This document shows, piece by piece, positions 8,419-63,400 of a stretch of DNA of 64,000 nucleotides. Source of the stretch: Gigantopelta aegis (lineage: Eukaryota > Mollusca > Gastropoda > Neomphalida > Peltospiridae); contig NC_054701.1 in the NCBI RefSeq assembly GCF_016097555.1, forward strand, positions 29,833,658 through 29,897,657, written 5' to 3'. Within the stretch, counting starts at the first letter, position 1, and each line of letters begins with the position of its first letter. The translations under genes were made by a program, and so were the position numbers. The notes beneath the pieces are model-generated. The model saw only the letters and a program-made list of their open reading frames with translations. It did no database searches and was not told the DNA's origin.

Positions 8419-8479
8419 GTCTCCGTAGCGCAGTGGACTTCTAATCCAGAGGTCGCGTGTTCGAATCCCGCCGGGGATG
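8419..8479 (+). pseudogene. tRNA-Arg (TCT) pseudogene lacking most of the D arm
   Basis: It aligns to the intact gene at 75-147. GTCTCCGTAGCGCAGTGGA joins straight to CTTCTAATCCAGAGG, so about 12 bases (rest of the D arm and the 5' anticodon stem) are deleted. The T arm also carries a change (GCGTGTTCGAATCCCGC). It cannot fold as a normal cloverleaf. Confidence 0.85.
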
Positions 8480-9462: not shown

Positions 9463-10001
9463 CCATCACAACGATCAACGCATGGACAGAACAGGTTGCA
9501 TGGTATTAGTACATGTTAACATTATCGGCAATAGGAATTGACTTGGACCGTTGGAACCATAACAGTGACTGTGAAAAGGCCATTGTTGTAGAAAGAAAAG
9601 TGTAATAGCGGAATCAAGGGGCGTAAATATTAATATTGTTAAGTTTTTTCAGCATTATTTACGTCAATACTGCATTTATTAATAAATATATAAAAAATAA
9701 TATTTTTCTTGATCTAAATAATGATGAATTGGTTTTCAAATACCCACTTGAAAACTGATTTTTAGATTTAGTATTTATTTTTAAAATTTAACATTATCTT
9801 ATTAGATCGATATCTCTCAAATTTTTTTAATGTTTGCGTGTGTTTGTGTGAATGTGTGTGTGCGTTTGTGGCAAATGCGTGAGTGGTTCTATGTGAGAGT
9901 ATGTGAGTGAATATGTGTGAATCTTTTTATAATTTTATTTGTATATTTTATGTATATATCAAATATTGAGTTTCACGAATAAAAAAGAAAAGAAAAAAAA
10001 A
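9463..10001. other. AT-rich intergenic DNA with TGTG tracts, no gene seen
   Basis: A degenerate GTGTGTGAATGTG tract (9832-9922) and AT-rich sequence; nothing else supported. Confidence 0.4.
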
Positions 10002-10053
10002 GCACGCTGGACTTCTAATCCAGAGGTCGCGGGTTCGAATCCCGCCGGGGATG
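10002..10053 (+). pseudogene. tRNA-Arg (TCT) 3' fragment after an A-rich tract
   Basis: GCACGCTGGACTTCTAATCC through the B box GGTTCGAATCC to CGGGGATG matches the 3' two thirds of the intact tRNA-Arg. The 5' part is replaced by AAAAAAGAAAAGAAAAAAAA. No acceptor stem can form. Confidence 0.8.
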
Positions 10054-23300: not shown

Positions 23301-26300
23301 TATTCAACTTAACGTACTAGCACAATGCCATACGACCCTGAGTTATAACTCCACTGCAGAATTATCTCCCCTTGCCGGATGTATAACCTACACCCGCGCA
23401 TGGATAGACCGTATATCCTCGTTTTTGATTCTGCAGTCCTCCATTGCAGTCGTGTTTGAGTTCTGTAGTAAAAAAATTGTCAAATTGTTAAATTGTTTAT
23501 TAATTTGTAATTTTGTTTTACTCTGTCATACAAGGTCTTTTGGGTGATTTACACAGGGGGTTAATGTCTGACACGGCTTCCTTGGGCTCCAACCGGTTGG
23601 TTGTGTGTGCCGAGGGGGGTTGTCTTAAACGACTGCCCCAGTTTGATCAGCATTTGTTATGTTGTTCTTGTTGTTTTGAATGCCTGTGTCATATCTGTGT
23701 AAATTGGTCCCCCTCCACGTGGGGAAAGGCTAAGAAGCTGTCAAAAGATGCTGAGTGTAAGAGGATGATTAGACATGAATGGGACGGGCGGAGCACAGTG
23801 GCAACCTCCGGGGTCATGCTCCATACCGATTTGCCATCGGTCGGCAAGTCGGTGTCCAGTTCAAAGAGCTCGTGGACAAGTGGTAGGCGCAAGGGCGCCT
23901 CCTCGTCTGTTCGCCATCTTCATGGTGATACCAGTAAACCCGTAGCGCCGCTTGGCGCGGTGGGGGTGCTGTTGCTCCCTGCTTCGGCTGAAGCAGGGAA
24001 GGTTTCTTCCAGGTTGGGCTCCGTTCCACCTGGGGATTTGCTTTTGCCTTCATCGGTGGAGGCGGCGCCTGTTACAGTTGTAACGGGGGCATCAGTCGGA
24101 GGGAGTGCAGTCATGGCAGGAACGACTGTGTCTCTCAGTTCCGACTCCCATCTTGCTGATGGGGGCAGGGTTAGCGGTCCTTCTGTGGGGGCAGGGTTAT
24201 CGGTCCTTCTGTGCAGGGTTGGTCGGGTCGATTAGCTCTAGAATGAAGTCCGCTTCACGGTGCCATTTGTGCGACTCACCTTCTGTTGTTGGGGCGCCTG
24301 TGCATAAACTTTTAGGTCGCGTGGCTACGTCAATAATCCACCTGGTACGTTGGGTTGAGAATTGGTTAGGATTTTTTGGCGGCGTCACAGTCCCGTTGTC
24401 TGTTTCGGCAGGGATTAGGGAAACTGCAGCTTTCTTGGGTGCGCCTGTGTCTGGGCAATCCGGACCTGGCAGATCGGGTTAGAGGTTCTGTGATCGAACT
24501 TTCGTTCAGGGTCGATGGTTTCGGGTCGCCCTCAGGGGCGGACTCGGGGGGACTATGTTTCTCTTTTTGAGAACTTCATGGCCCAATTGCCTCACCAGTC
24601 TGGGGTTTAGTGCCAGTTTGCAGCACCGTTCTGTTTTGCCCACTTATCTCAGCGCATGGCGCGTCGTTTGGAAAATTTCTTCTTCGTAAGAGGATTTTCC
24701 CTCCGAATCAGTGTGTGGTTCGGGGGAAGGGTCGGCACCAGGTTCAGTGCTTGATGAACCAATTTTGTGGAGACAGCGATTATACCCGTTCTTGGTTTTT
24801 CCGACGGATGCAATTTCGCAACTTCTACAATTTCATGAAACGGCCTTTGGCGCACGAGGCACGTCTTCTTTGGTGGAGCATTTTGTGTGTTTCGGTGCGC
24901 ACGCTCACTACCATGCGACGGGTGTTGATAGGCCATCACGAATCGCTGGCGGCACTGAATTCGTCCCTGCTGCTGTGGCTTCAGACGGTTCAACCTGAGA
25001 AATCGACTTTACTTGACATTTATCAATGGCATTTGTCGCGAGTGTGAGGGCTTACGGATAGGTCCTCAGCTGGGATGGGTGATACCATTGGGGCCTTGTT
25101 TTTCCCCTTCTCCTCCCCCCGGTTACCTGCCAAGAGTCCGTCGAATAGTGGAGACAAGTGTCGAGTTTGTCCCAGGCCGTTCCTTCACACCCACTTTCTC
25201 GCCCAGAGTTGACCAATTCTAAACCTGAAGCCGCTGAATTCTTACGTTGTTATTCCATTTACCGATGCTGTTCCCTCATGGGGCGTTCGATTTGGTGCAT
25301 GTTCCACCTTTTGGATCAACAGATCTTTCAGGGGTCGGTGGACTCCTTCAGAGAGGAGTCGTCACATCAACCTGGGCGTGGAGTTCATCGACATGATTCT
25401 CCGATTGGGGTTTATTCCCAATTGGGAGATTGGAAGCAGTGCGTCGCGCTTGTCTTCCATTTCATGACTGTTACGTCTTCTGGTGGAGCATTGTCAAATT
25501 TTGTTGAGCCATCACGTCGCTGGCGGCACTGAATGTGTGGTTCACACCGCTTCAATGGCATTTGTCCCGAGTGTGGGATGGTTGCTGGGATTTGGTGATA
25601 CATTGGGGCCTCATTCTTCCGATCGGTGTCTAGGGAGACACCAAATCTCCTGTCCTGTTTTGATGCTTCCCTTGTTCGTGCTTTGGAGATTCTGGAATGG
25701 TTGATGGAAGCATTGCGTCGCGCTTGATTTCAGGACTGTTATTATTGTCAAATTTTGTTGCCAACACATCATGCGTCCTCAATCGTCACCAAACGTGCGG
25801 CTTGGATTCAGACGCTTGAGTCATCGTTCCCCGGTTCAGACGGAGTGGATGTTGCACCGGTCGGTGGCTTATCGAGTTCTTCAGTTGTGGGGGAGTCCTC
25901 AACTCGATATGTTTGCCACTCGGTTGCCAGAGTTTGTATCGCCGGTACCAGACCCACTGGCACTGGAGTACGATGCGTTGAGCATGGACTGGACGGGACT
26001 GGATTTTTACGCCTTTCCCCCTCCGGTTCTGCTTGGCACGCTCATAGCCCCGAGTTGGGCAGCTCAAGCCTGGTTTCCTCCTCTCCTGTCACTTTTAGTG
26101 CAGGAGCCGGTGCGGTTGCCGTTGATACCCGATCTGCTCAGTTAGAGACTGCATCGGACAGAGTGGCATCCGAAGCCGGAGGTTTTCCGACTTCATGCTT
26201 GGCGGTTGTCGGGGTTTGCCTTCGTATTAGTGAGATTCATGCTTTTTTGCATGGTTTGGTGGATTACAATACGGACGGGTCAGTTACGTTACGTACTGAT

Positions 26301-29300
26301 CCTGTTTTCGTGGCTAAGAACCAGGTGCCAGGGGAAGAGTTTCCTCCGGCCATCATTCAGTGTTTATCTTGTACGCTTTTTGCGGATAATTCTGATAGAC
26401 TTCTTTGTCCGGTGCGGGTTTTGAAATTCTATTTGGAGCGTACTAGAAATCTCCGGCAAAACACTAAGAGACTGTTTATCTCTTTCACATGCCAACCAGG
26501 AGACATTACGAAGAATGCTTTGTCGAGATGGATTGCTGCAACCATCAAACTAGCATATGAGAAGGCGGGTGATCATGTTCTGCGGAATTTCTCTGTTCGA
26601 CCTCATGAGATTCGGGCGATTTCTGCTTCCCTTAATTTCCATGATTCTTTGGACATTTTCAAGGTCATGAGTGGGGTTTTGGAAAGGTCGACACACGTTT
26701 GACCGGTTTTATTTCCGTGATATGGCTGTTGGTCTGGACGGAACTCGACGGATTCAATCAGTCATTGCAGGGCAGCAAGTCGTTTCGGTGCGCAGGGCCA
26801 CGAGTAGGGGGCGACCCTTATTTCGTTCGGTCGCTAGCGGCAGTCTTTCTGGGAGATAGTTCTCCACCTCCTGTTTGGAGAGTGGGAGGTGGATGGTTGA
26901 CTATCTGGGGCAGTCGAGTGTCTTTTACCATTACTTGGTGTGCGGGTTTCCTCACCTTGTTAACTTGGTTTACTTTTAATTGGGGTTGTAGTTCTTCAAT
27001 TTAAAAGTCACTTAGACATTTTATACCTCGTATGATGTGGGTTGCTTTTTCAATGTATTATTACTTGAGACGAACACTACTGGTTGAATGGGTAAGTCCT
27101 CCTTGTTTTCTTACCTCCTTCCTTTAATGTTAAGTTCTCGTGCTTTAACGGTGTTATATCACGTCTGTTATAGCATTGTTGTTGTGCTAGTACGGTAAGT
27201 TGAATAAGACTATTAGAAAATTTGTTTCTAATTTTCATTATTATTCATACTTACCTAGTACTAGCACAACAACCGTTACCTCCCACCCACCCCGAGGGAG
27301 GTCTTTTTTGATTCAGTCATTCCGGACTTTGAATCGATAACGAGGATATACGGTCTACCCATGCACGGGTGTAGGTTATACATCCGGCAAGGGGAGATAA
27401 TTCTGCAGTGGAGGTTATAACTCAGGGTCGTATAGCATTGCTGTTGTGCTAGTACTAGGTAAATATGAATAATAATGAAAATTAGAAGAAAAAAATTATA
27501 AGTTAGTGCAATGGCTTAACACCTTATTACAGAGTCACAAACTCTACTGTCCAGGTTGGAGACCTACTGGGATACGAATTCAGCTTCTACCAATTTTAAT
27601 GGCTTAATACTTTGCCAAAGAGGCTGGTGTAATATTGGGGTGAATATTAATTGTAATGCAATATAATAGTACCAGTAACCACTGACAAACGTATTAGCAG
27701 GGAACATTTTGTTTCTGAAATCATGATTAGTAATATTTTCAGTCAGTTGACATTGAAAATTTATTAGCAACTACTGTTTAATGTTTTAAAATTGTTCCCT
27801 GTTTAGGTTTTGAGACTAGTCCAGCAACACAAATATAATGACTACAAGTCTTAGTAGTTAGTGTATGGTCCATGATGTAGAATTGGAAGTTCAAAAATAA
27901 ATGGAAAGGGATAAAGTTGGAACTCGATATATGTAGTAACAAAATAAAAGGCTGATGTTCTCTTTGGTGATTGATTATAAATATAAATTTTGTTACCTTA
28001 TTATCTTTCATTTAAGTTGTAAATAATCTTGTTTTGCTGTACTCTCAATTGATGTTTGTGCAATGACTCATAAAGAAATCAGATGGCTTTAACAGCATGG
28101 ATAAATAAATGATTTAACTGCATTTACAAATTAACATAATATCTTCAAATCCTAAACTGTCCAAATTAGATGAATTTATAATTTTATCCAGTAACTTTTA
28201 TTAGTCACTGATCCTCAAATATACATGATTTCATGGCGATTTATCAATATTTGACAGAGTTATAGCCCTTGAATTTAGGAGATGTGAAAATTTTGTTTTC
28301 CATACCTTTTCTTGCAATGCCTGAAGATATTGAGATGAACTTTTGTATATAGCTTTATGTACTATTATAGATCATGTTTGACTTTTATGGCGATTTACCC
28401 ATTTTTCACAGAGTTATGGCCCTTAAATTTAGGAGATACAAAAATTTGTTGGTTCCGTTAGGGGACATGTATTGCTTTAGCAGTACTTTCAGAATGCTTG
28501 TTACATATTTATTTCTTTTAGTACAAATTGTGAATAAGCATTGTCCAACATGTATTAATGTAGAATGAACAAAAGATTACACTAATATATGTTTTAATAT
28601 TGACAGGAAAGTTGCTCACAATTGTTGAGGCAGTGCACCCATGATGATTTCCGAAATCTGATTCTACCAGCTGTCAAGAAATCTATGCTCAGAAGTCCAG
28701 AAATATGCCTGGAAAGTAAGTTGAAATATTTTCATTGTTTAACTGGGCATTACAAATATTAGCAGTTTATAGAGACTGTCTTGCTGAAATTTAATAACTC
28801 ATGTAAAAGAACCTTATTGTTTGAAGCACGTTTGAGGGAAAACATTGTTATTCAGTAATTATGTAATATGCTCTACTGGCTGGGAAGTTATTCAATTAAA
28901 TTACAAAATATTATAGGGAATAATGTGTCCTATCCACAAAGTACATAAGTGAATTGGTTTATATCTTTTCACTATCCGATCAAAAAATTTACCATTTAAC
29001 ATCAGAGCTTTGCTATTTCAATTATGCAATGTTTTACTTTTATGTAACTTATATTTTAAATTGTTTTTTCGAAAATATATTACGGGGCTATAACAATTTC
29101 AATATCAATATTATTTTCTAGTCATGAAATATTTTCAAAGAATACATGTACCTTCATTAAAACTGATATTAATGATAAGAAGAAAAGCAGTATTATAACG
29201 GTCAGCTTGTTTTTATTTTCAGCTGTGGGGTACTTGATCAAGGGTTTGAAGATAGATCTCAGTCAGTATACAGCAGACTTGATCAAGTTACTGGGAGGTG

Positions 29301-51400: not shown

Positions 51401-54400
51401 CGCTGGTTCCTTCCATCAAGCAGGACGCCCCCGACCTGGTCCAGCGACTGCTGCACCTGCTGCTGGAGTCTGACAACTACGGAGAGAGGAAGGGAGCCGC
51501 GTACGGGCTGGCAGGACTCATCAAGGGCATGGGGCTGCTGGCCCTTAAACAGCAGAAGGTCATGGACATCCTCACGGTGGCCATTCAGGACAAGAAGAAC
51601 CCCAGGAAGAGAGAAGGTATGAAGAAGTTTTTTTTTTTTAAAGCGTGGTATGAATTTATGAAGCCTGTTTTTTTTTAAAAGCAGGTGTTTACCCATTGTA
51701 AATGTATGTAGTTACACCGGGTGTAAGTCATAAACAGGCTTTGTCAGTACGGCCCAATATGTTTTGAAAAATTTGTCAAAAAGAAAGTTATCAGTGTTGT
51801 GAAAAGCCATAAAAAGAGACATTTTACAAGTGAAAATAATAACCCTGGAAGCAGATATGCTATGGCCAGGTGTAATGGAATAATGGAAGACTAGTCGGAG
51901 AAAAAAAGGTAATCCTGGGCCTAATTTACCAAACTCTTGTGGCTTTGATGATGAGATGATGCCTAAGAAAGCCTAAGAGCATCAGGTTAGACATGATATA
52001 AAAAATAAAAATAATAAGTATTCAGAAAACCGCTGGAGAGAACATATGGTGTTAAAATTGAAATAGAAAAGATGTCAAGCTACATAGAAAACTCTTAAGT
52101 TTAGATGTTATAAAAAAAACTTAAAAGAGATAGGAAGTATGGAAACATTATTGAGAACTTGAAAACATAGAGTGTCTTCTTGGGTTTTTTGGTGTTTTTT
52201 TGTGTTTTTGTTGTTGTTGTTTTTTTAAACATGTGCATTGCCTAAAAACAAAGATATTTTATATTATATTAGACTATTAGATTGTTTAGCATTGCCTAAA
52301 AACAAAGATATTTTATATTATATTAGACTATTAGATTGTTTAGCATTGCCCAAAAACAAAGATATTTTATATTATATTAGACTATTAGATTGTTTGAGAG
52401 CAATTGTTATGTTGAAGAAAAAAAAATGGTTTTACCAATTGAAATTTCTGTTTGATTTGCAGGAGCGTTGTTTGCCTTCGAGATGCTGTGCAATATGTTA
52501 GGTCGTCTGTTTGAGCCGTACATCGTCAATATCATACAACACCTGCTGCTCTGTTTTGGTGATAACAGTCAATACGTCAGACACGTAAGTATCTTACTTG
52601 CAGGTAAACATAAACATGCTTACTAGAACAAATTTTGTTGAGCCAATTTTCAGAAATGTTGAGTATTTTCCTTGAAAATCATTAAATTGTGGTTAATTTG
52701 TGGAATATTGTATTAGCCAGTCCACATTTTGTAGCCATTTTGTGTAAAAAATTAGCAGTAAAGAATTTGGCAATGTACAGGGTAAGCCCTGACTTACTGT
52801 TCACTAGTATCAATTAATGTCCATTCTCATTGTCAAAGAATTTGAAGAAGGAGGGGTGCAGAATGTTTGTTATGTTCACAAGTCTTTTGCCCAAATACCT
52901 AAAAAAGGGGTGTATATTGTATCTATACATGGAGTAATGGAGGGTGAAAAAATTATTAGCATATGTCTAGCTCAATTTAAAATAAAATTAAATCACAAAT
53001 TACTGGCAGATATTCTTCTTTTTAAAACAAATGTTAAAAAATTTATGTTTCGTTTAAAACTTTTACTTGTACAAACAATAAGGGTTCGCTTGCTGTTCAT
53101 TATACCATGTAAAGATACATTTTATAAAAATATATTGAAAATTATGTTTCGTTTAAAACTTTTACTTGTACAAACAATAAGGGTTCCCTTGCTGTTCATT
53201 ATACCATGTAAAGATACATTTTATAAAAATATATTGAAAATTATGTTTCGTTTAAAACTTTTACTTGTACAAACAATAAGGGTTCGCTTGCTGTTCATTA
53301 TACCATGTAAAGATACATTTTATAAAAATATATTGAAAATAATGTTTCGTTTAAAACTTTTACTTGTACAAACAATAAGGGTTCGCTTGCTGTTCATTAT
53401 ACCATGTAAAGATACATTTTATAAAAATATATTGAAAATTGTGTTTCGTTTAAAACTTTTACTTGTACAAACAATAAGGGTTCGCTTGCTGTTCATTATA
53501 CCATGTAAAGATACATTTTATAAAAATATATTGAAAATTATGTTTCGTTTAAAACTTTTACTTGTACAAACAATAAGGGTTCCCTTGCTGTTCATTATAC
53601 CATGTAAAGATACATTTTATAAAAATATATTGAAAATTATGTTTCGTTTAAAACTTTTACTTGTACAAACAATAAGGGTTCGCTTGCTGTTCATTATACC
53701 ATGTAAAGATACATTTTATAAAAATATATTGAAAATAATGTTTCGTTTAAAACTTTTACTTGTACAAACAATAAGGGTTCGCTTGCTGTTCATTATACCA
53801 TGTAAAGATACATTTTATAAAAATATATTGAAAATAATGTTTCGTTTAAAACTTTTACTTGTACAAACAATAAGGGTTTCGCTTGCTGTTCATTATACCA
53901 TGTAAAGATACACTTTTACTTGTACAAACAATAAGGGTTTCGCTTGCTGTTCATTATACCATGTAAAGATACACTTTTACTTGTACAAACAATAAGGGTT
54001 TCGCTTGCTGTTCATTATACCATGTAAAGATACATTTTATAAAAATATATTGAAAATTATGTTTATTATCTTCCACTATTTTGTTTATTCTTTATTTCTC
54101 AAGCAATATGAAAGTGGTAATGTATTGGTAACTGAATAAATTAAATGTGTTGTTGCAGGCGGCTGATGACTGTGCCAAGTCGGTGATGCGTAACTTGAGT
54201 GCTCATGGTGTGAAGCTAGTACTGCCTGCTCTGTTACGCGGACTGGAAGAAGACTCTTGGAGGACTAAAACAGGTTTGGATTTGGTTTCATCCATGAATT
54301 ATTTAAGTGTTAGGACGATAAATACTCTGCAAGAACTGGGGCAGATTTTTAGACAATTCTATATTGGGTGATGAACAAACCTGAGTTTGCTGCCATTTTA

Positions 54401-57400
54401 AACTCATAAAAATCTTTTAAGAATTAAAATTACATACTAAATATAGTTTCTTGTTTAGAATATCAGAGTGTATATTCAATGTGTTTTTTGTCATTCTAAA
54501 GTTTTAAGTAGCCCAAACTGGATTTGGTCTCTCAATAATGTTGTATGTATGAACAAATATTATATAACAAAATAAAGTGAAGTTTGACCTAGTAATAACA
54601 TTAAGATGATCAGAATAACATTTAACCTACAGCCACAGTCATCATGATACTTTTTTTAATACTAGATTGAGACATTCAGATCAGTTCATTGTAAAGGAGA
54701 GGGGGCTGCACAAAGGTTGAGAGGTCAGGTCAAATGTTCATGAAAAAAAAGAATGTGCTTTTTTTCTTCTTTTTTTATATACAGTTTTGGATGTAATAAA
54801 TAATGAGCTGTACTATACATTTAACAATTACAGTTATACCAGTTAAATATATGTATTAATTACTTCAGGTTCTGTTGAGCTGCTGGGTGCCATGGCATTT
54901 TGTGCACCCAAACAGCTGTCTGCGTGTCTGCCCAGCATCGTGCCCAAGCTGACGGAAGTACTGACGGACTCCCACTCCAAGGTCCAGAAATCAGGGGCAC
55001 AGGCCTTGATGCAGATCGGATCGGTGATCAGGAATCCAGAGATTCAAGGTAAGTTATTAATGTTGATGCAGATCGGATCGGTGATCAGGAATCCAGAGAT
55101 TCAAGGTAAGTTATTAATGTTGATGCAGATCGAATCGGTGATCAGGAATCCAGAGATTCAAGGTAAGTTATTAATGTTGATGCAGATCGGATCGGTGATC
55201 AGGAATCCAGAGATTCAAGGTAAGTTATTAATCTTGTTGCTGCACATCGGATCGGTGATCAGGAATCCAGAGATTCAAGGTAAGTTATTAATCTTGTTGC
55301 TGCAGATCGGATCGGTGATCAGGAATCCAGAGATTCAAGGTAAGTTATTAATGTTGATGCAGATCGGATCGGTCATCAGGAATCCAGAGATTCAAGGTAA
55401 GTTATTAATGTTGTTGCAGATCGGATCGGTGATCAGGAATCCAGAGATTCAAGGTAAGTTATTAATGTTGTTGCAGATCGGATCGGTGATCAGGAATCCA
55501 GAGATTCAAGGTAAGTTATTAATGTTGTTGCAGATCGGATCGGTGATCAGGAATCCAGAGATTCAAGGTAAGTTATTAATGTTGTTGCAGATCGGATCGG
55601 TGATCAGGAATCCAGAGATTCAAGGTAAGTTATTAATGTTGTTGCAGATCGGATCGGTGATCAGGAATCCAGAGATTCAAGGTAAGTTATTAATGTTGAT
55701 GCAGATCGGATCGGTGATCAGGAATCCAGAGATTCAAGGTAAGTTATTAATGTTGTTGCAGATCGGATCGGTGATCAGGAATCCAGAGATTCAAGGTAAG
55801 TTATTAATGTTGTTGCAGATCGGATCGGTGATCAGGAATCCAGAGATTCAAGGTAAGTTATTAATGTTGTTGCAGATCGGATCGGTGATCAGGAATCCAG
55901 AGATTCAAGGTAAGTTATTAATGTTGTTGCAGATCGGATCGGTGATCAGGAATCCAGAGATTCAAGGTAAGTTATTAATGTTGATGCAGATCGGATCGGT
56001 GATCAGGAATCCAGAGATTCAAGGTAAGTTATTAATGTTGTTGCAGATCGGATCGGTGATCAGGAATCCAGAGATTCAAGGTAAGTTATTAATGTTGTTG
56101 CAGATCGGATCGGTGATCAGGAATCCAGAGATTCAAGGTAAGTTATTAATGTTGTTGCAGATCGGATCGGTGATCAGGAATCCAGAGATTCAAGGTAAGT
56201 TATTAATGTTGTTGCAGATCGGATCGGTGATCAGGAATCCAGAGATTCAAGGTAAGTTATTAATGTTGTTGCAGATCGGATCGGTGATCAGGAATCCAGA
56301 GATTCAAGGTAAGTTATTAATGTTGTTGCAGATCGGATCGGTGATCAGGAATCCAGAGATTCAAGGTAAGTTATTAATGTTGTTGCAGATCGGATCGGTG
56401 ATCAGGAATCCAGAGATTCAAGGTAAGTTATTAATGTTGTTGCAGATCGGATCGGTGATCAGGAATCCAGAGATTCAAGGTAAGTTATTAATGTTGTTGC
56501 AGATCGGATCGGTGATCAGGAATCCAGAGATTCAAGGTAAGTTATTAATGTTGATGCAGATCGGATCGGTGATCAGGAATCCAGAGATTCAAGGTAAGTT
56601 ATTAATGTTGTTGCAGATCGGATCGGTGATCAGGAATCCAGAGATTCAAGGTAAGTTATTAATGTTGTTGCAGATCGGATCGGTGATCAGGAATCCAGAG
56701 ATTCAAGGTAAGTTATTAATGTTGTTGCAGATCGGATCGGTGATCAGGAATCCAGAGATTCAAGGTAAGTTATTAATGTTGTTGCAGATCGGATCGGTGA
56801 TCAGGAATCCAGAGATTCAAGGTAAGTTATTAATGTTGTTGCAGATCGGATCGGTGATCAGGAATCCAGAGATTCAAGGTAAGTTATTAATGTTGTTGCA
56901 GATCGGATCGGTGATCAGGAATCCAGAGATTCAAGGTAAGTTATTAATGTTGTTGCAGATCGGATCGGTGATCAGGAATCCAGAGATTCAAGGTAAGTTA
57001 TTAATGTTGTTGCAGATCGGATCGGTGATCAGGAATCCAGAGATTCAAGGTAAGTTATTAATGTTGTTGCAGATCGGATCGGTGATCAGGAATCCAGAGA
57101 TTCAAGGTAAGTTATTAATCTTGTTGCAGATCGGATCGGTGATCAGGAATCCAGAGATTCAAGGTAAGTTATTAATCTTGTTGCAGATCGGATCGGTGAT
57201 CAGGAATCCAGAGATTCAAGGTAAGTTATTAATGTTGTTGCAGATCGGATCGGTGATCAGGAATCCAGAGATTCAAGGTAAGTTATTAATCTTGTTGCAG
57301 ATCGGATCGGTGATCAGGAATCCAGAGATTCAAGGTAAGTTATTAATGTTGTTGCAGATCGGATCGGTGATCAGGAATCCAGAGATTCAAGGTAAGTTAT

Positions 57401-60400
57401 TAATGTTGTTGCAGATCGGATCGGTGATCAGGAATCCAGAGATTCAAGGTAAGTTATTAATGTTGTTGCAGATCGGATCGGTGATCAGGAATCCAGAGAT
57501 TCAAGGTAAGTTATTAATGTTGTTGCAGATCGGATCGGTGATCAGGAATCCAGAGATTCAAGGTAAGTTATTAATGTTGTTGCAGATCGGATCGGTGATC
57601 AGGAATCCAGAGATTCAAGGTAAGTTATTAATGTTGTTGCAGATCGGATCGGTGATCAGGAATCCAGAGATTCAAGGTAAGTTATTAATGTTGTTGCAGA
57701 TCGGATCGGTGATCAGGAATCCAGAGATTCAAGGTAAGTTATTAATGTTGTTGCAGATCGGATCGGTGATCAGGAATCCAGAGATTCAAGGTAAGTTATT
57801 AATGTTGTTGCAGATCGGATCGGTGATCAGGAATCCAGAGATTCAAGGTAAGTTATTAATGTTGTTGCAGATCGGATCGGTGATCAGGAATCCAGAGATT
57901 CAAGGTAAGTTATTAATGTTGTTGCAGATCGGATCGGTGATCAGGAATCCAGAGATTCAAGGTAAGTTATTAATGTTGTTGCAGATCGGATCGGTGATCA
58001 GGAATCCAGAGATTCAAGGTAAGTTATTAATGTTGTTGCAGATCGGATCGGTGATCAGGAATCCAGAGATTCAAGGTAAGTTATTAATGTTGTTGCAGAT
58101 CGGATCGGTGATCAGGAATCCAGAGATTCAAGGTAAGTTATTAAGTTGTGCAGATCGGATCGGTGATCAGGAATCCAGAGATTCAAGGTAAGTTATTAAT
58201 GTTTGCAGATCGGATCGGTGATCAGGAATCCAGAGATTCAAGGTAAGTTATTAATGTTGTTGCAGATCGGATCGGTGATCAGGAATCCAGAGATTCAAGG
58301 TAAGTTATTAATGTTGTTGCAGATCGGATCGGTGATCAGGAATCCAGAGATTCAAGGTAAGTTATTAATGTTGTTGCAGATCGGATCGGTGATCAGGAAT
58401 CCAGAGATTCAAGGTAAGTTATTAATGTTGTTGCTGCTGCTGGGCTCACACTGGAACTCATTTTGGTTCAGCCAATTTTCAGAAATGTTGAGTATTGTTC
58501 TTGAAAAGCATTAACATGTGGTTAATTTGAGGAATATATTATCAGCCAAAGTTTAAATTTTGTATAAAAATTAGCATTTGGCTGATTTGGCAATGTACAT
58601 GGTGAGCCCTGCTTGCTGTTTGGCAATGTACAAGGTGAGCCCCGCTTGCTGTTTGGCAATGTACATGGTGAGCCCCGCTTGCTGTTTGGCAATGTACATG
58701 GTGAGCCCCGCTTGCTGTTTGGCAATGTACATGGTGAGCCCCGCTTGCTGTTTGGCAATGTAAATGGTGAGCCCCGCTTGCTGTTTGGCAATGTACATGG
58801 TGAGCCCCGCTTGCTGTTTGGCAATGTACATGGTGAGCCCCGCTTGCTGTTTGGCAATGTAAATGGTGAGCCCCGCTTGCTGTTTGGCAATGTACATGGT
58901 GAGCCCCGCTTGCTGTTTGGCAATGTACATGGTGAGCCCCGCTTGCTGTTTGGCAATGTAAATGGTGAGCCCCGCTTGCTGTTTGGCAATGTACATGGTG
59001 AGCCCCGCTTGCTGTTTGGCAATGTACATGGTGAGCCCCGCTTGCTGTTTGGCAATGTAAATGGTGAGCCCCGCTTGCTGTTTGGCAATGTACATGGTGA
59101 GCCCCGCTTGCTGTTTGGCAATGTACATGGTGAGCCCCGCTTGCTGTTTGGCAATGTAAATGGTGAGCCCCGCTTGCTGTTTGGCAATGTACATGGTGAG
59201 CCCCGCTTGCTGTTTGGCAATGTACATGGTGAGCCCCGCTTGCTGTTTGGCAATGTACAAGGTGAGCCCTGCTTGCTGTTTGTTTATGTAAATTGTTCTT
59301 TTCATACATTATCCTGACCTCTCACTTATTTGCATACCTTCCCTAAAATAATCCACTTGATAAGTTAAAGTTTTGTTTTGTTTAAAGACACCACTAGAGC
59401 ATTTATTAATCATAAAATCCTTTGCTGCATTAGGAACAAAGTTGCGGGTTACAACAAAAGGTTACACTCATTTTTGTTGAAAGATATTTATCTTGTTTTT
59501 CTGTTTTCAGCCATCGTTCCAGTCCTCATTGACGCCCTTCAGGAGCCTACCATGAAGACGACTACATGTCTCCAGACATTGCTAGCCACTAAGTTCGTTC
59601 ACTTCGTTGATGCCCCATCTCTTGCTCTCATCATGCCTGTGGTGGAACGTGCGTTCAAGGATCGCACAACAGATACTCGCAAGATGGCCGCTCAGATCAT
59701 GGGCAACATGTACTCACTCACTGACCAAAAGGTAAGCTGCTAATGTCTTGTAGAAATGTCCAGATAAATGTTTAATAACATACCAGCATGAAAAAGTGAT
59801 CATCTTTGCTGCCATTATGTGATGTTAATGACAGGGTTGTATGGCATTTGACCCAATAAATGGCCAAGCAGAGAATTGCTTGAAAATGTATACATTTATT
59901 AGTCCCCTACCGGTCCAATTGTAGGGACTATAGGTTTTATATCCGTCCGTCTGTCAGTCTTTCTGTCAGTCTGTTCATCTGTCCATCATTTAGTTTTCCA
60001 GACTTTGTTTTTAGCAATACCTTAAGATTTTAAGCTAAAATTTTATATATAGTTCAAGTTTGACTTTCATGCAGGTTTACTCGTTTTTATATGCCTGTCT
60101 ATGATGGGTTGTGCATCGTCTGTCCGTACGTTCGTCAGTTAACTTTTCTGGATCATATCTTGCATACAGATGCATACAGGACCATCAAACCTCACATGTA
60201 GGAACAACTTGGGATGGTGGTGTGTCACATACAATCAAATAATTTTTCTATATTCACATAATTAGAATTTAATCATACCCATAACATTTTCATTAATATC
60301 TATGGTTTCCATCAAACACCTGACGGGTGTATCATGTACTTCACCGGTACTCTTGTTGTCAGAGTTATGGCCCTTGAAATTTGTTGTCCCCAGTAGGTGA

Positions 60401-63400
60401 CATGTATTGGTTTAGCGGTACTCTCAGAAAAATACTTTATCCAACCAACTACATAGATTTTTTCTTTGCATTTGTTGTGAGAATATAAGTGAATTTTCAT
60501 GCTGTATTTCAGGACTTGTCTCCCTACTTGCCCTCTGTGATCCCTGGACTGAAGCAGTGTCTGCTGGACCCTGTGCCTGAAGTCCGCAGTGTGTCGGCAC
60601 GGGCGCTCGGTGCCATGGTGAAGGGGATGGGGGAGAGCAGCTTCGATGACCTGCTGCCCTGGCTCATGGATAAACTCGTCTCGGAAAGCAGCTCGGTCGA
60701 CAGATCAGGCGCAGCACAAGGTAGGTTTTAGTATTGCAGAAAAAGTTTGTTTTGTTTAACGACACCACTAGAGCACATTGATTTATTAATCATCAGCTAT
60801 TGGATGTCAAACATAGGTCATTTTTACACAGTCATAGAGATGAAACCTGCTACATTTTTCTAGTAGCAAGGGATCTTTTATATGCACCATCCCACAGACA
60901 GGATAGCACATACCATGGCCTTTGGTATACCAGTCATGGTGCACTGGCTGGAACGAGTAGTATTACAACAGAAAATAATGAAGAAGAAAAGGAATGTCTG
61001 TCACATGACTCCAATATGGTTTTCTTAATAAATAAAAAAAAGCAAAAAAAAGCAATGTTTTATTTGGTGTGGAGGGGCGGGACGTAGTCCAGTGGTAAAG
61101 CGCTCGCTTGATGTGCAGTCGGTTTCGGATCGATCCTCAGGCATCAGTGGGTCTCATTGGGCTATTTCTTGTTCCAGCCACTGTACCACGACTGGTATAT
61201 CAAAGCATGTGGTATGTGCCATCCTGTCTGTGGGATGGTGCATATAAATACTAATGGAAAAATGTGGCGGGTTTCCTTTGATGGCTACAAGTCATAATTA
61301 CCAAATGTTTGACATCAAATAGCCAATGATTAATTAATCAATGTGCTCTAGAGGTGTCGTTAAACAAAACAAACTTTCTTTCTTTCTATTTGGTGTAGGC
61401 TTTGATATGTCTGTATCAAGACCCCTGTATTTTTTTAATCAACATAACTATATTGGGAAAAAGAAAGGAATGGTATGTTTTGTTTGACAATATCCCAGGA
61501 GTTGTTAGGTGCCTAACAAATCATAATTATGACACATTTGTCTTGAAAATGAAAGAACGGATCTCGTTGCTGCAATAGTGGTTCATTTTCTAATTAGAAT
61601 TCTGAGCGCTTTTATATCATTATGTGCATTTGATGCTGAGAATGAATGTTTAACAACACCCTAGCACAAAAATACACATCGGCTATTGGGTGTCACAAAT
61701 GGTCATTTGATGCTGAGATGATTGATTCCTTTAAATGTAGTGTGACATCACAGCCATTGGTGAATTGTTGTATATTCACTTCTAGTCTGTATTTTGACTT
61801 TATTTTGTTCCAATTTTAATCACAGCCATTAGTGAATTTTTGTGTGTTCATTTCTAGACTACTGTATATTTTGACTTTATTTTTCTTTGTTCCAGTTTTT
61901 ATCACAGCCATTTAATGAATGTTTTGTGTGTGTGAACTTCTAGTCTATATTTTGTCTTCATGTACAGGCCTGAGTGAAGTGATAGGTGGTGTAGGGCTGG
62001 ACAAACTGAAGAAGGTCATGCCGGACATCATAGCCACCGCCGAGAAAGACGACCTCGCCCCACACGTACGCGACGGCTACGTCATGACCTATATCTACCT
62101 CCCCGCAACATTTGGAAAGGACTTCGGCATATTCGTTGGACCCATATTGCCATCCATTCTTAAGGTAAGTAAACTGTAACTGAGGTCAGGTCATAAGTTT
62201 TAACGTGCACATTCAGAATAATCTGCTGTAGCACACACCTTTCAGGGGCACAGGTGTCGACATTCGCCAATTCTACCATCCAGAACAGGAACCTGTAACT
62301 TTGAATCTTACCGTTTTGTAGTTAACCGTGTGGGGTTGGGACGTACCCTGGTAGTAAAGTGATCGCCGTATGCAAGTCAGTCTAGGATCGATTCTCGTTG
62401 GTGGGCCCATTGGGCTATTTCCCGTTCCAGCCAGTACACTATGACTGGATGCCCGAAACCATAGTGGTATAGGGGCATGTAAAAAAATACTATCTCTCTC
62501 TGTCACTATGACTGGTGTATCAAAGGCCATGGTATGTGCCATCCTGTGTGTGGGATGGTGCATATAAAAGATACCTTGCTACTAATGGAAAAATGTAGCA
62601 TGTTTCCTCTATTAAGACTATATGTCAAAATTAGCAAATGTTTTAGATCCAGTAGCTGATGATTAATAAATCAATGTGCTCTAGTGGTTTTGTTAAACAA
62701 AACAAACTTTAACTTTAACCATGTGGATTAAACTTGTATGTGTTTATTTTAGTTTTGGTAAATAAACATCATGGTGAACAACCAACTTTTACATGTATGT
62801 TGGGTTTTTTTAATGAAAACTAACTTCTCGTCCTATGCCCTTTCACTCTGCCACTGGTTTTAGTTTCTGTTGGTCCAACCGGAGGGGGCGATAGGTTTCA
62901 CTTGCATCCTTCTGTCCATTTGTCCCACATAGGTTTTCTCGGACATTTTTTTCCACAATGCCTCAAGTTATGCCTCAAGGTGAAATTTTGTATGTAATTT
63001 ATCAGGTACTGTTATAGATCACATTTGAATTTCATGGCGAGTTACTGTCTTTGAACTTAGGAGATATGAAAATTGGTTTTCCAGACTTATTTTTGCAATG
63101 CCTTAAGATATTGAGCTGAAATTTTGTATATAGCTTTATCATGTACTGTTACAGATCAAGTGTCACTTTAATAGCAGTTTACTAATATTTCATATCCCTT
63201 GCTGCTAATGAAAAAATATAGCAGGTTTCATCTGACTATGTCAGAATTATCGAATACTTGACATACAATAGCCAGTGATGATAAATCAGTGTGTTCTAAT
63301 GGTGTCGTTAAACAAAACAAACTTTATGTTTTTTAAAAGTATTACTCTCTACGTGTGATTGTTGTTTGTTTGTGTTCAGGCTCTGGCTGACGAGTCTGAG

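Follow-up and report, generated by a model that had tools for sequence, protein, structure and literature searches.

When the end of an exon is repeated many times over together with its 5' splice site, which of the identical donors is joined to the next exon, and what does such an array mean for the gene that carries it? This question is raised by the housekeeping gene GCN1 in the gastropod Gigantopelta aegis, within a stretch of 64,000 nt (hereafter the window, numbered from its first nucleotide) lying on contig C3 of a single genome assembly of 1.149 Gb. The GCN1 locus contains a tandem array that includes the native donor of one of its exons and whose units bear donor sequences. The reading that we consider likely is that of a donor-spanning minisatellite, seeded by a duplication of a GCN1 exon-intron boundary, spliced mostly from its first donor or donors and probably near-neutral.

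The motif CAAGGTAAGT occurs 60 times in the window, once per unit, with its GT found from 55049 to 58414, and the 59 spacings between successive donors are 57 bp in 55 cases, 60 bp in two and 55 bp in two. Tandem Repeats Finder (TRF) describes a single array within which the native donor is located (Table 1), and one unit sequence accounts for 45 of the 59 units. An initial sequence-only reading of this DNA had counted 59 extra copies of a 57-bp unit, which is borne out by the number of donors and their spacings. It located the array correctly with slightly trimmed ends (55015-58413, as compared to 55006-58434 by TRF), and attributed to each unit the last 34 exon bases, which is too few, as the commonest unit includes 39 nt of exon and units with TTGATGCAG include 43 nt, 34 nt being the exon portion downstream of the CAG in the unit.

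Structurally, the units join the exon end to the intron start, i.e. they represent a duplication across the exon-intron boundary. The left edge of the array is formed by exonic CCTTGATGCAG and the right edge by intronic TTGTTGCTGCTGC. The unit junctions read TTGTTGCAG in 48 of 59 cases (three of them with C for G just before), TTGATGCAG in seven, TTGTTGCTGCAG or the corresponding form in -CAC in two, and shortened forms in the remaining two, with the variants TTGATGCAG, TTGTTGCAG and TTGTTGCTGCAG matching these exon and intron flanks. Such variants would be expected if exchange took place at differing positions in a shared TTGWTGC. Slippage or unequal exchange involving the exonic TTGATGC and the intronic TTGTTGC may have duplicated a 57-bp piece composed of 39-43 nt of the exon end and 14-18 nt of the intron start, after which the array would have expanded and become homogenised. 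The acceptor-like site found in most units would be a by-product of the intronic TTGTTG being set ahead of an exonic CAG. A boundary duplication can in this manner convert a cryptic exonic CAG to an acceptor-like site, yielding dozens of exon-like units at once.

The normal product of the gene was deduced from a phase-consistent model guided by the human GCN1 sequence, with several 5' exons lying outside the model, in which 55048 is joined to 59511 without any insert with respect to known GCN1 proteins. For the joined translation, matches were obtained to yeast GCN1 (7nrc_A, E 7.1e-44) and to the Pfam families HEAT_EF3_N and HEAT_EF3_GNC1; the best PDB row is 8i9x_LR (E 8e-56), a 2898-residue chain labelled by its depositors as Ribosomal protein L19. 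Among the 120 proteins listed of 3198, GCN1 of Haliotis asinina exhibits the highest identity (88% across the 601-aa query region). The top bit score among the matches listed (1365) belongs to GCN1 of Agrilus planipennis (P0001) with an identity of just 71%, perhaps due to a duplicated segment in this record. Both anchor motifs were present in 106 of the 120 proteins, the 14 without an anchor under the pattern used being left out of the spacing count, and all 106 share a 44-residue spacing across the junction with no insert, from which the first donor would be expected in the GCN1 mRNA. GCN1 exons queried against the assembly match this locus, a short partial copy on C3 and, at 30-33%, a region on C2045. 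The partial copy (L017 975-1083, G000:C3, ~29583574) covers the end of the GCN1 exon 60513-60720 and its donor, is 94.5% alike over 110 columns and adjoins a 35-bp tandem array at a distance of ~300 kb on the upstream side of GCN1; a dispersed repeat overlaps an 82% match to the intron following this exon. The matches on C2045 (G000:C2045:11587-12484) concern the GCN1 HEAT region, contain several stops and come from a distant relative, perhaps from another organism.

Splice sites were scored with a simple position weight matrix (PWM) based on frequency tables. The native donor is the joint highest of the GCN1 model, tied with that at 62165, and 60 of the 63 plus-strand donor-like sites in the window with a score of at least 8 fall in the 57-bp array. 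With a threshold of at least 4, there are 131 plus-strand sites, of which 60 are in this array, 21 in a second array and 50 elsewhere. In six sampled array donors, the predicted unpaired value was 0.56 for the first and 0.59-0.83 for the other five, the 24 donors of the GCN1 model spanning 0.09 to 0.85. The sequence-only reading had proposed about 60 equivalent donors competing for one acceptor, which is correct in terms of sequence, as there are 60 identical strong donors and one strong acceptor at 59511. Functional equivalence does not follow, since the donors differ in their distance to the 3' splice site of the exon. That reading had recognised the donors and had overlooked the acceptor-like sites, the open frame extending over 55 donors, the second array and the frequency of arrays in the genome. 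As the local donor sequences are alike, position and exon definition would have to decide donor choice. Exon definition would proceed from the 3' splice site at 54869, with the first donor, giving a 180-nt exon, mostly used, donors 2-3 used sometimes and the remaining donors removed with the intron. By analogy with ABCA7 and IFI6, whose reported donor use is discussed below, the first donor is likewise expected to dominate and the following ones to be used to some extent. A later donor, up to number 55, would add 19-20 in-frame residues per unit. The array would be tolerated, probably close to neutral, imposing at most a mild drag on splicing.

Several observations weigh against this interpretation. 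The array donors match the native donor in score and the sampled ones are predicted to be at least as unpaired, and therefore local sequence leaves the neglect of the later donors unexplained. None of the 60 donors is mutated and variants concentrate at the unit junctions, which is also compatible with constraint. Furthermore, 13 random 10-kb stretches (130 kb, contigs C1-C3) contained 24 arrays, defined by a period of at least 10 and at least 2.5 copies, six of which reach 10 copies or more, and in one of the 24 a 42-bp unit recurs ~84 times. A strong donor (score of at least 8) was found in most units in none of these 24 arrays and a moderate donor in one, and a strong donor in every unit is hence uncommon per array. 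A second donor-like array within the same intron is an unexplained coincidence, and donor use is inferred.

Regarding constraint, homogenisation accounts for the 60 unmutated donors, the variant events being few. Perfect donor conservation was rejected as evidence of selection, given the 99% matches of the array overall and a hand estimate by which ~10 of 57 positions have a fair chance of being spared by ~8 distinct variant events. Neither is the junction clustering claimed as selection, as several of these variants are TTG/CTG-run indels or exchange-register variants. Genome-wide, three successive AGGTAAGT at 28-58 bp spacing yield 1601 matches (922 + 679), which overlap within arrays and so reflect units more than loci, against 3139 (1619 + 1520) for the reversed control pattern, i.e. 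no excess. Among the matches listed, reaching 15.9 Mb of C2, seven arrays could be discerned by reading. Donor-bearing arrays are present at several places in the genome, with a motif unenriched versus the reversed control. As minisatellite density is high, some would be expected on exon ends by chance; in three other donor-bearing arrays (L031, L033 and L035) analysed by TRF and for open reading frames (ORFs), no exon boundary was callable. The occurrence of similar long arrays elsewhere in the assembly also argues against an assembly or sequencing artefact, or an array length far from the true one. Although the evidence rests on one assembly, the units hold ordered variants instead of being perfect copies and the 96.8-Mb size of contig C3 speaks against a short-contig artefact, leaving little chance for such an explanation.

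One of the structural features of the array is its reading frame, which suggests a further explanation, namely that donors 2-55 are used at real rates, so that GCN1 isoforms would differ in how many 19-residue units they carry in the EF3-like HEAT region. Such a splice-dialled module is conceivable because the unit constitutes 19 stop-free codons and every donor is identical. One allele might then produce GCN1 with 0 to 54 extra helix-like units, with internal cassettes acting as an off switch and splice choice, perhaps changed by stress, setting dose or reach, a scenario to which we give very little credence. The downstream frame is indeed kept without a stop by donors 1-55 of 60, and both 60-bp units preserve it, while donors 56-60 lose it because of two 55-bp units. 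However, an open 57-bp unit, being a multiple of three, opens the whole array, so the frame is weak evidence, and the two 55-bp units break it. A search with the 380-residue array translation gave no match at E 1e-3 among 7996 scored candidates, a weak result confined to similar-length proteins and short words, and a single-sequence AlphaFold model of the exon with the first units was unusable (mean predicted local distance difference test, pLDDT, 46.3). Moreover, the 106 anchored GCN1 proteins are all without an insert at this junction, and regular use of the later donors is highly unlikely. The open frame was also rejected as a sign of coding selection, since the stop-free unit opens every copy and the 55-bp units break the frame, and the three Pfam matches obtained with the array translation, one of them to ATP-synt_C, were dismissed as repeat noise, with no stretch passing alone. 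Such loci can mislead gene prediction, the open frame here being 3.3 kb long and probably not exonic, and arrays of this type can also confuse short-read RNA mapping.

The layout of the unit points to another possible role. In most units a donor, a TTAAT branch-like site, an acceptor-like site and a 34-nt exon piece follow one another, and such a unit could act as a 34-nt micro-exon set off by a spacer of 23 nt. Preceding the 34 exon bases, units end with TTATTAATGTTGTTGCAG in 45 of 59 cases, compared with the 48 carrying TTGTTGCAG. The 57 exact acceptor-like sites, with scores of 1.5-5.2, lie within the limits spanned by the acceptors of the GCN1 model (-2.0 to 7.5), of which that at 54159 likewise ends TGTTGTTGCAG; the CAG of the exon itself, preceding 55015, scores -1.3. 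When donor 1 is joined to any of the 57 exact acceptors and then to any later donor, a stop is obtained in 1656 of 1656 single-cassette combinations, and a transcript including an internal cassette would meet a stop and probably be degraded. The array could be a cluster of decoy or poison exons, which would hold up the splicing of the intron by recruiting U2AF and U1 to their sites and would lower or tune GCN1 via retention or stop cassettes. There is a precedent in OGT and other genes, in which decoy exons are reported to promote intron retention (PMC12017769). Against this, acceptor-specific constraint is not evident, one unit having CAC for CAG, and the likely branch A within TTAAT lies just ~12 nt from the exon. 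Exons of 34 nt and spacers of 23 nt, the latter below the minimum animal intron length, are too small for neighbouring units to pair, so units would have to be skipped, with skipping of one unit extending the spacer to 80 nt. A decoy function is considered unlikely. In order of probability, neutrality with a slight cost is most likely, followed by decoy or poison action, with in-frame length variation the least.

Table 1. Features of the GCN1 exon end, the following intron and the next exon (window positions)
Feature	Position	Strand	Basis
GCN1 exon (exon 32 of the sequence-only reading), 180 nt, ends CAAG	54869..55048	+	phase-consistent splice model, yeast GCN1 alignment
Open GCN1 frame between two stops, kept with donors 1-55	54847..58188	+	ORF and frame analysis
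57-bp minisatellite, 60.1 copies, 99% matches, covering exon end and intron start	55006..58434	+	TRF, unit counts
Native 5' splice site AAG/GTAAGT, donor score 8.5	55049..55054	+	unit counts, splice model
59 extra CAAG/GTAAGT donors, GT from 55106 (donor 2) to 58414 (donor 60)	55106..58415	+	unit counts
57 exact acceptor-like sites CAG/ATCGGATCGG, mostly TTGTTGCAG; first exon bases 55072 to 58380	55072..58380	+	splice-site PWM
Two 55-bp units, frame-breaking	58133..58242	+	spacing and frame analysis
Second minisatellite, 33 bp x 21.2, moderate donor-like ATG/GTGAGC per unit	58581..59282	+	TRF, PWM
Downstream GCN1 exon (exon 33 of the sequence-only reading), acceptor score 7.1	59511..59731	+	splice model, GCN1 alignment

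In the second minisatellite of this intron, all 21 units are donor-like, with ATG/GTGAGC scoring 5.1 and AAG/GTGAGC in the second and last units scoring 7.1, and donor-like sites are absent from the seven other tandem regions of the window that were checked. Variants of this 33-bp array recur as C, C, A over much of its length, defining a 99-bp higher-order unit, and a 99-bp array in the preceding intron (53039-54064) has the core CTTGCTGTT in common with it, such that both are possibly one repeat family. Another GCN1 intron contains long ORFs of retrotransposon-like look (23504-26699), which we take to be DIRS-type; the two ORFs tested from this region had no Pfam match. Three tRNA matches were found, at 75-147, 8419-8479 and 10001-10045, of which one is good and two are weaker, the latter perhaps derived from short interspersed elements (SINEs).

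With 60 identical donors in near-identical surroundings, one acceptor and a conserved host gene, the locus provides a natural titration of 5' splice-site position effects, a question commonly addressed by engineering two or three sites. As such, it is a clean natural test of the choice between identical splice sites.

In the accessible parts of the literature on gastropod minisatellites and on GCN1 in molluscs, nothing was found on this locus, and the comparison turns to other systems. Like the GCN1 array, the variable number tandem repeat (VNTR) of human ABCA7 intron 18 is a minisatellite that starts with or includes the native donor and has donors in its units. Its 25-bp unit begins at the exon 18 donor, with ~12 to 427 units, and the canonical isoform is reported together with an isoform retaining one unit, i.e. 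using the donor one unit downstream, with single-unit retention independent of VNTR size and more exon 19 skipping with larger arrays (PMC5954066). Unlike this unit, which starts at the intron GT, the 57-bp GCN1 unit includes 39-43 nt of coding exon, its donors all have the same exon-side context, an acceptor-like site is present, and its period preserves the frame, which 25 bp does not; the ABCA7 isoforms were measured in RNA, the GCN1 array being read from the DNA sequence. The human IFI6 (6-16, G1P3) minisatellite is composed of ~12-bp units in ~26 copies. Similarly, its units supply several donors to one transcript, with two downstream repeat units reported to serve as donors (PMC4526556), while in the GCN1 array a 57-bp unit occurs 60 times and most units contain an acceptor-like site. 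As in intron gain by tandem duplication (PMC4974935), a boundary-crossing duplication copies splice signals; there, one duplication leads to a new spliced intron, whereas in GCN1 59 extra copies with a 23-nt adjacent spacer are observed. The OGT decoy exon (PMC12017769) resembles the GCN1 units as an intronic exon-like unit with both splice sites, whose inclusion brings a stop, but OGT is described with one decoy exon, in contrast to ~57 units in the GCN1 array. The case had initially been regarded as remarkable, yet it has parallels in ABCA7 and IFI6, where reported use is of the native donor plus one or two downstream units; the GCN1 array is probably of a kind known from these two human genes.

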